Shown here in pieces: positions 22,426-24,901 of a stretch of DNA of 64,000 nucleotides; the first letter of the stretch is position 1; every line of letters begins with the position of its first letter. The stretch covers positions 151,799-215,798 of the forward strand of contig CAKZPV010000050.1 of assembly GCA_937139405.1 (NCBI GenBank). Reading direction: 5' to 3'. The notes under the pieces were generated by a model. The model did not search any database. It saw only the letters and a list, made by a program, of their open reading frames with translations, and was not told the origin of the DNA. Both the position numbers and the translations under genes were made by a program. This stretch comes from an uncultured Nitrospirota bacterium (GTDB lineage: Bacteria; Nitrospirota; Nitrospiria; Nitrospirales; UBA8639).

Positions 22426-22838
22426 GGGGTTCCTCCTTTTGAAAAATGATATTGCTTTTAGCTCGAGATGCAACAATCATTGGGAAGGGGTCGGCCGCGG
22501 ACGCGAAATTGAGGCGACTGAGGTCTGGCACTTTCCAGGAAACTCTCGGGCAAAACAACACCGGTTATGGGCTTTCGTGATTGAATAGTGCAGAGCCAAG
22601 CCCCTCGCCCTACATTAGGAAAACCCTAGCATAACCCTTTTTGAAAAGATAGAAGGGGAAGTTTTTTATGATTTCCCAAATGGTTTTTTCTTATTGGGAA
22701 TGACCTGCAAGTAGTGCCGTTTGTTATTAACTAGTTCCCCCAACATTTAGATTTTGTATGAAAAGTCGCTCAGCCTTCCTCATTCTAGCTTAATTCTCAT
22801 CCTCAAAATAGTTATACTGATATGAAGGAATTTTCTGA
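22426..22838. other. Intergenic region between divergent genes, nothing recognised
   Basis: About 410 bases between the minus-strand RRM gene and the plus-strand Lon-like gene. It must hold both promoters and the RRM leader, but I see no clear -35/-10 pair, repeat or small gene. ORFs 22343-22588 and 22364-22561 overlap each other and lack support. Confidence 0.5.
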
Positions 22839-23534
22839 ATGATTAAGAAACGACAAAAATCCTTGGATATTATTCCAAGAGCCTGGTTGTTAGGCCTTGG
22901 ATTAGTGGGAATTCTCTGTTGGGGTACAGGGACTTGGGCTAAGCCATCTCCTAGTCAAATTTTACATCTGCAGGTTCCTATCTTAGGGACCTCGGTCAAC
23001 ACCCATCATTTGCCCATCGGACTTGTTTCGAATATTGTCATCGATCTCTATGAACGTCGGGATCAGGGGGGCTTACGGATTCAATTCCATACCGAGCCTG
23101 GGCAGTTTTCCTTGTTAGCTAGGCAAGCGATCCATGATGCAATCACTCGTGCATTGCATGCCGCGAATCTTCCGGTCGATTCATGGACGGTTCAACTCAA
23201 ATTTCCCTATGTTGGGTTAACTGTTTATGGAGAAAGTCTTTCAGCCATGGTGGCATTAAGTGTCGTTGCCATGGTCAAAGGCGATGGATTATTGGAGGGC
23301 CGGATTTTGACTGGTACGATTACCGATCAAGGACAGATTGGAGCAGTGGGTGGGTTGCAGCTCAAAATTCTTGCGGCTTACCAGCAACATTTTCAACGAG
23401 TCTTCGTTCCTAGCGCGTATGATGAACGGGATGGTGATTGGCAGACACCGTTTCTCATGCATGTGTCTCCCGTCAGTACAGTTCAAGAAGCCTATCAGGG
23501 TCTCACAGGGCGTCAGTTAATTTCTACACATTAG
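22839..23534 (+). CDS. Exported or membrane-anchored protein with a stand-alone Lon-type (S16) protease domain
   Basis: The 231-residue protein has an N-terminal hydrophobic segment (about 14-34, WLLGLGLVGILCWGTGTWA). The rest is colinear with the Lon protease domain. The GESLSAMVAL stretch aligns with Lon's catalytic-serine loop (Ser about 135), and IGAVGGLQLKILAA aligns with the catalytic-lysine loop GGLKEKLLAA (Lys about 176). There is no AAA+ module. If active, it would be a Ser-Lys dyad peptidase outside the cytoplasm, without an ATP-driven unfoldase. No partner gene is evident. Confidence 0.8.
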   Translation: MIKKRQKSLDIIPRAWLLGLGLVGILCWGTGTWAKPSPSQILHLQVPILGTSVNTHHLPIGLVSNIVIDLYERRDQGGLRIQFHTEPGQFSLLARQAIHDAITRALHAANLPVDSWTVQLKFPYVGLTVYGESLSAMVALSVVAMVKGDGLLEGRILTGTITDQGQIGAVGGLQLKILAAYQQHFQRVFVPSAYDERDGDWQTPFLMHVSPVSTVQEAYQGLTGRQLISTH

Positions 23535-23598: not shown

Positions 23599-23946
23599 TT
23601 ATGCATCCGTGGAGTGGGATTCGTGGTTCGATAAGTGATGAACTTGTTGTTCCAGTTCTTCAATGCGTTCCAGTAATTCCAAGGCCACGGTGACACCTTG
23701 CCAATTAATTCCGAGATCGTGATGCAATCGAAGCCCCCGCTGTAGGCGGTCGAAGGCTTCCAACGGAAAAAGAATCGTTCCTTGAGAGTCGGGTTCTGGT
23801 AATTGAATGATTTCCCATCGTAAGCAGACTTCTAAGATATCATCTCCAATGCCTAATCGAGCACAGACTTCTTCTCGCCGCATCAGGCTTTTCGTGATGA
23901 TTTCTGCAGTCACCTGCTCCAAGGTCGGTTGTGATTCGTCATGCAT
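23599..23946 (-). CDS. cbpM: CbpM-like chaperone-modulator protein
   Basis: A roughly 115-residue protein, start at 23946 (MHDESQPTLEQ), overlapping the end of the CbpA gene by eight bases. It has a MerR-like helical start (SLMRREEVCARLGIGDDILEVCLRWEII) and a C-terminal coiled stretch (LELLERIEELEQQVHHL). This matches CbpM in size and position: CbpM binds the J domain of CbpA and inhibits it. The genomic pairing with a CbpA gene strongly supports the call. Confidence 0.88.
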   Translation of the reverse strand: MHDESQPTLEQVTAEIITKSLMRREEVCARLGIGDDILEVCLRWEIIQLPEPDSQGTILFPLEAFDRLQRGLRLHHDLGINWQGVTVALELLERIEELEQQVHHLSNHESHSTDA

Positions 23947-24901
23947 GGGTTGCCTCCCGAAGCAAGGATGAACGGGGATCAGGATGATCAAATGTGGCTA
24001 ATTGTTCGTAAAGCTGGTGTTCTTCTGGAGAAGAGTCTTTTGGCAGGACAATATTCAATACGACAAACTGATCGCCATGTCCGCCTTTCCGCTTAGGAAG
24101 GCCTTTCCCTTTTAGGCGCATGCGTTGTTGTGGTTGACTACCGGGCGGAATTTTGAGACGAACGGATCCTGATAATGTTGGCACTTCGACATCGGTGCCT
24201 AATGCAGCTTCCCAAGGCCATATGGGAAGGTTCACAATGATATCGGCATTTTTTCGTTGAAAGACTGGATGTGGGGCGATTTGGACATGAAAAAACAAAT
24301 CTCCGGATGGACCTCCACCACGTCCCGGTTCGCCTTTGCCTTTCACGCGAAGGCGTTCCCCGTTTCGTACTCCACCAGGAATGCGGACTTCAATTTGCCG
24401 GGAGGTTCCAGTTGCATCGGGTAATGACAAGGTACGACGAGTTCCGGTAAAGGCCTCTCGAAGGGAAACGGGTAAATCTGTTTCCAGATCTGCCCCGGCC
24501 ATGGCGAAGCCTCTGAAGGATGCGCCTTCCCGCTGACCCCCACGTGCAAACATCTGTTCAAACATGTCGCTAAAATCTCCACTGCCTTGAGAAAATCCAG
24601 GGTGAGGTTGTCCGCCAGGATAGCCTCTGCCTGCCTCTTGCCGTGCGCGCTCATATGCTTCGGCTTCTTTCCAGTTTGAGCCGTATTGATCGTATTTCTT
24701 TCGGTTTACGTCGTCACCGATCACTTCATACGCATCGTTCAGCTCTTGAAACTTCTTTTCCATCGCGGCTTTCTTCTCGCCTGGATGTAAATCAGGATGA
24801 TACTTGCGGGCTAGCCGTCGATAGGCTTTCTTGATTTCTTTCTGCTCAGCGGTCTTAGGCACGCCTAAAATGCTGTAAAAGTCTTGGGTGGTGTTGGCCA
24901 T
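23939..24901 (-). CDS. cbpA: CbpA-type J-domain co-chaperone
   Basis: The 320-residue protein has an N-terminal J domain with the H-P-D motif (RKYHPDLHPG), then a Gly/Phe/Arg-rich linker. Two C-terminal substrate-binding domains follow (DLETDLPVSLREAFTG, KGKGEPGRGGGPSGDLFFHV), without the zinc finger of DnaJ. This is the class B (CbpA) architecture that works with DnaK under stress and may bind DNA. It is translationally coupled to CbpM. Confidence 0.95.
   Translation of the reverse strand: MANTTQDFYSILGVPKTAEQKEIKKAYRRLARKYHPDLHPGEKKAAMEKKFQELNDAYEVIGDDVNRKKYDQYGSNWKEAEAYERARQEAGRGYPGGQPHPGFSQGSGDFSDMFEQMFARGGQREGASFRGFAMAGADLETDLPVSLREAFTGTRRTLSLPDATGTSRQIEVRIPGGVRNGERLRVKGKGEPGRGGGPSGDLFFHVQIAPHPVFQRKNADIIVNLPIWPWEAALGTDVEVPTLSGSVRLKIPPGSQPQQRMRLKGKGLPKRKGGHGDQFVVLNIVLPKDSSPEEHQLYEQLATFDHPDPRSSLLREATHA

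Follow-up and report, generated by a model that had tools for sequence, protein, structure and literature searches.

The open reading frame at positions 22839-23534 of the window, a 64,000-nucleotide stretch of DNA from an uncultured Nitrospirota bacterium, encodes a predicted signal peptide and one complete Lon P domain, and nothing else. Textbooks describe Lon as an ATP-dependent protease of the cytoplasm. The best explanation for the 231-residue product, and one that we consider probable from its sequence, is a Sec-exported, ATP-independent Lon-type Ser/Lys endopeptidase that would work in the periplasm.

The gene and its surroundings

The putative exported Lon-type protease gene (22839..23534, + strand, 231 aa) was characterized by Pfam, PDB, and family searches and by dN/dS analysis. 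The coordinates of the open reading frame are exact, with an ATG start codon at 22839-22841 and a TAG stop codon at 23532-23534. The sequence AAGGA (22825..22829, + strand), located 9 nt before the ATG, was read as the ribosome-binding site. The mature part was compared with six orthologues (L001-L006) by the NG86 method, which gave dN values of 0.10-0.18 and near-saturated dS values of ~1.7-2.2. The low dN against this near-saturated dS shows that the open reading frame is a real gene and that purifying selection acts on its mature part.

The gene stands by itself: an upstream RRM gene is divergent from it, and a CbpM-DnaJ pair is convergent with it. The CbpM-like and DnaJ/CbpA-like genes of the pair (window 23599-24901, - strand) overlap each other. 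The arrangement of the RRM, CbpM, and DnaJ neighbors is kept in close relatives only, and therefore no function was inferred from the neighborhood. A promoter scan around the gene was uninformative.

The mature protein is a Lon P domain

The Pfam Lon_C model (PF05362) matches the protein with E=4.8e-7 and 30 bits, above its cut-off of 21.1. A phmmer search of the PDB with the 231-residue protein matched the Archaeoglobus fulgidus LonB P domain (E=4e-7), and a 24-sequence family profile matched the PDB entries 1z0e (E=6e-19) and Escherichia coli Lon (E=3e-15). NCBIfam matches also link the protein to Lon families. The alignment with LonA P domains is co-linear: G61-L-V lies on the GxVxGLA strand, a long helix spans residues ~92-108, Ser133 falls on the catalytic Ser, T158-G159 on the TGE motif, and Lys176 on the catalytic Lys. 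No AAA+ module was found in the 231-residue chain by alignment, structure model, or Foldseek, and the 197-residue mature part (residues 35-231; 22941..23531, + strand) is filled by the complete P domain. The Pfam search returned Lon_C and a weak ChlI match only, and no PDZ domain. The first-pass annotation of this DNA had described a Lon protease domain without an ATPase and without PDZ and had named PF05362 and structure prediction as checks; the Pfam match above its cut-off bears out the domain, and the composition of the chain bears out both absences.

An AlphaFold2 model computed with LonA P domains from viral contigs in the alignment has a pLDDT of 86.9 and a pTM of 0.87; with LonA rows in its input the model depends in part on the homology, whereas the sequence statistics do not. 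A first AlphaFold2 model, computed from just nine close sequences, was of poor quality, with a pLDDT of 48.5, and was discarded. Foldseek matched the later model over its whole length to Lon P domains of known crystal structure, with E values of 1e-12 to 1e-10 for E. coli Lon, AfLonB, and MtaLonC. Among the matches listed, 50/50 are Lon proteases with query-normalized TM scores of 0.63-0.73, and they include E. coli Lon, AfLonB, Methanocaldococcus jannaschii Lon, human Lon, BsLonBA, and MtaLonC. The predicted structure, for which LonA rows were in the alignment, is thus consistent with the P-domain fold of family S16, the fold that the annotation had anticipated.

Three types of putatively exported Lon

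A maximum-likelihood tree of 80 P domains was calculated and rooted at its midpoint only. All exported Nitrospirales Lons form one clade (99/95), apart from LonA, the Bacillota LonB-like sequences, and the YlbL/SepM-like sequences. The nine Bacillota YlbL/SepM-like sequences, two of which score above the NF041438 cut-off, form a clade of their own (99/98). The Ser-Lys offset is 43 in all exported types and in LonA, and 45 in the YlbL/SepM-like rows. We labeled the exported types I, II, and III; these names are descriptive and were coined in this analysis. Type I (24 rows, support 100/100) includes the protein encoded by 22839-23534. Type II consists of short proteins, mostly with the motif GPSA[GS], and its support is weak (91/49). 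Type III proteins (100/99) are ~300 aa long and carry an N-terminal cysteine-bearing DUF4124-like segment before the Lon domain; the DUF4124 match of one protein, at 21.0 bits, is under the cut-off of 22. The ~300-aa exported Lons L112-L115, L125, and L127 have this cysteine-bearing segment together with a linker.

A paralogous subgroup of the exported Lons, from Nitrospira-like genomes of family f3 (L122, L143-L155, and L162; for example G188:C1:791319-791945), carries Thr at the position of the catalytic Ser (motif TAEAA[LM]AIG) in 15/15 sequences read, and the Lys is retained with unchanged spacing. An active-looking GPSAG paralogue is also present in at least six genomes with this subgroup. 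The Thr may serve as a nucleophile, or the subgroup may be a pseudoprotease partner.

Distribution

The genome under study has two LonA genes, one RadA-like gene, and two exported-type Lons, the present one and C8:61174-61821. Matches with E < 1e-50, often in several copies, occur in 35 of the 37 genomes of its family, itself included; the remaining two (G021 and G029) gave no matches at the sensitivity of that search. Elsewhere in the order Nitrospirales, family f3 shows up to six Lon-domain matches per genome, a count that takes in LonA. A further 31 genomes consisted of 30 sampled Nitrospirota from outside the order and one reduced genome from inside it. The matches listed for them lie in frames of 480-1218 aa, which by size are LonA-type, with the exception of a single 115-aa piece close to the end of a contig. 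The annotation had considered an exported Lon-like peptidase unusual for a Gram-negative bacterium. That view stands for the sampled Nitrospirota outside Nitrospirales and fails within the order, where such proteins are normal. The family searches detected no relatives on viral contigs or on plasmids.

The second copy in the same genome (G000:C8:61174-61821) and L041, L043, L049, and L057 keep their neighbors across genera. These neighbors, named by eye from their sequences, are HD-GYP-like, hydroxyisobutyrate-dehydrogenase-like, and small HAD-like phosphatase genes. A six-frame search also located a copy with four in-frame stops (L059 4384-5022; G028:C60:88374-89021) that is probably a decayed gene.

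The active site is not standard

The putative catalytic serine, Ser133 (codon 23235-23237, + strand), lies in the motif YGESLSAM (23226..23249, + strand), and the putative catalytic lysine, Lys176 (codon 23364..23366, + strand), lies in GGLQLK. Neither residue varies in the type I alignment of 24 sequences, though overall identity drops to ~40%. Their offset of 43 leaves 42 residues between them, as in LonA and LonB, and a Ser-Lys dyad with 42 intervening residues is a criterion of the Lon family (PMC9569914). Thr158 (codon 23310..23312, + strand) corresponds to the conserved T in the TG motif that Lons have close to the active site; this position is T in 24/24 type I rows and in 25/26 LonA rows. 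The Ser and Lys loops are therefore as recognizable as the annotation had maintained.

The residues that flank the serine are another matter. The type I motif is [YF]G[E/D/K/N]SL[ST][AG], typically [YF]G[E/D]SL[ST]AM. The residue before the serine is E132 in this protein and E/D/K/N across type I, and residue 134 after it is Leu in 24/24 type I rows compared to Ala in nearly all other rows. True Lons have Pro or Asp before the serine and Ala after it, and this protein has Glu and Leu. The motif matches neither the A (PSAG) nor the B (DSA[ST]) active-center type, and a recent structural study of the MEROPS Lon groups found no variants besides these two (PMC9569914). The invariant Leu after the serine and the E/D/K/N before it mean that the active site is not standard.

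Predicted export

Residues 1-34 (22839..22940, + strand) were predicted as a signal peptide by a simple rule, not SignalP. The layout is a KKRQK n-region, a LLGLGLVGIL h-region, and a cleavage site between TWA and KP (residues 34/35), and no lipobox was read in these 34 residues. In 40/45 relatives the same rule found an AxA-type site downstream of a hydrophobic segment, while the N-terminus itself diverges. The annotation had proposed a signal or anchor helix, and the AxA-type pattern favors reading residues 1-34 as a Sec-type signal peptide. BamA-type Omp85 proteins are encoded in the genome, which therefore belongs to a diderm with an outer membrane and a periplasm. The Lon-type product would be expected in that periplasm.

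Proposed function

In the proposed mechanism, the signal peptide would guide the chain through the inner membrane, and signal-peptide removal would occur after Ala34. The mature 197-residue P domain is predicted to fold alone. It probably assembles into a ring, by analogy with isolated Lon P domains, which form hexamers in crystals (PMC9569914). Ser133, activated by Lys176, would cleave periplasmic polypeptides that, being unstructured or small, need no unfoldase to reach the site. The role could be that of a periplasmic clean-up protease, or of a processing protease with few specific substrates. Three points weigh against this reading: the active site is not standard, the model obtained without LonA rows was poor, and YlbL purified without its membrane anchor had no activity in vitro (PMC6051672), so that a Lon domain lacking an ATPase can be inactive by itself.

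The N-terminal helix could instead remain uncleaved and tether the P domain to the inner membrane on its outer side, where the protein would act like YlbL/SepM as a processing protease whose targets are one or a few peptides, either secreted or in the membrane. YlbL does so without an ATPase (PMC6051672), and the low-confidence model of the full-length protein (pLDDT 48.5) has a helix at residues 12-28. However, most relatives have an AxA-type signal peptidase site after the helix, the tree and the Ser-Lys spacing set the protein apart from the YlbL group, and it has no PDZ domain. We regard a tethered protease as unlikely. The idea that the protein is an exported Lon-fold pseudoprotease, a binding or scaffold protein without protease activity, is slightly less likely again. 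Non-peptidase Lon homologues exist (PMC9569914), Thr replaces the Ser in the sister subgroup of Nitrospira-like genomes, and the type I motif fits neither of the known active-center types. These points are set against the invariance of Ser133 and Lys176 in all type I members at identities down to ~40%. A non-Lon member of the same fold superfamily (a RadA C-terminal or ChlI domain), suggested by weak ChlI and RadA matches, is highly improbable and was rejected: these matches fall well short of the Lon_C score, the protein carries the Ser/Lys dyad, and the genome encodes its RadA in a different gene, which the tree places apart.

AAA-less Lon relatives are already known, as are extracytoplasmic ones in Gram-positive bacteria. 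No published description of this protein group was found in a search of open-access literature. As far as this literature shows, two features appear new: the exported Lon stands alone and forms a multi-copy group across a whole order of a diderm lineage, and its active-center motif belongs to neither the A nor the B type. A broader scheme is tentative, and we give it somewhat less than even chances: periplasmic proteolysis by stand-alone Lon P domains would extend across Nitrospirales, with a third kind of active center, several diversified paralogues per genome, a Ser->Thr sister subgroup, and an ATP-free extracytoplasmic ring. If true, a motor-less periplasmic Lon group, with its proteolytic domain complete and several copies spread over an order of nitrifying and related bacteria, would show how P domains select substrates without an unfoldase.

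Comparison with known systems

The archaeal predicted S16 proteases of COG1750 have a Lon-type domain without an ATPase and with a signal peptide. ATPase-less Lon homologues are also known in MEROPS (PMC9569914). The E. coli-type LonA P domain shares the fold and the dyad spacing, but LonA is cytoplasmic, is fused to AAA+, and has the PSAG motif; two LonA proteins are encoded in this genome as well. The P domain of archaeal LonB (AfLonB, 1z0e) is the best PDB sequence match and has the acidic residue before the Ser and the offset of 43, whereas LonB is a membrane-bound AAA+ protease with the motif DSA[ST] compared to [E/D]SLS here. CalpL, the CRISPR-associated SAVED-Lon protein, is likewise a Lon-type peptidase without AAA. 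It differs in its SAVED sensor and its role in type III CRISPR signaling; the 231-residue protein has no SAVED domain, and the profile match is weak (E=0.06).

LonC (MtaLonC/TTC1975) offers a precedent for the ATP-independent Lon-type proteolysis proposed here, since Meiothermus LonC degrades unfolded protein without ATP (PMC3391209). LonC is cytoplasmic and has a large degenerate AAA-like N-terminal region (PMC3391209). The present protein has no such region: only the signal peptide precedes the P domain, which leaves no room for one.

YlbL/SepM, the PDZ-Lon proteins of Gram-positive bacteria (NF041438), share an extracytoplasmic Lon P domain (predicted here), the Ser/Lys dyad, and the lack of an ATPase. 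YlbL requires its Ser and Lys outside the cytoplasm and has no ATPase (PMC6051672). These proteins differ in having a PDZ domain and a membrane anchor, in their Ser-Lys offset of 45 compared to 43, and in forming a separate clade, and the 231-residue protein scores 33 bits against the NF041438 cut-off of 200. The annotation had named the secreted PDZ-Lon proteins as the nearest known parallel. They are that as a parallel in function; given the separate clade and the different Ser-Lys spacing, the exported Nitrospirales protein is not simply a YlbL without PDZ.
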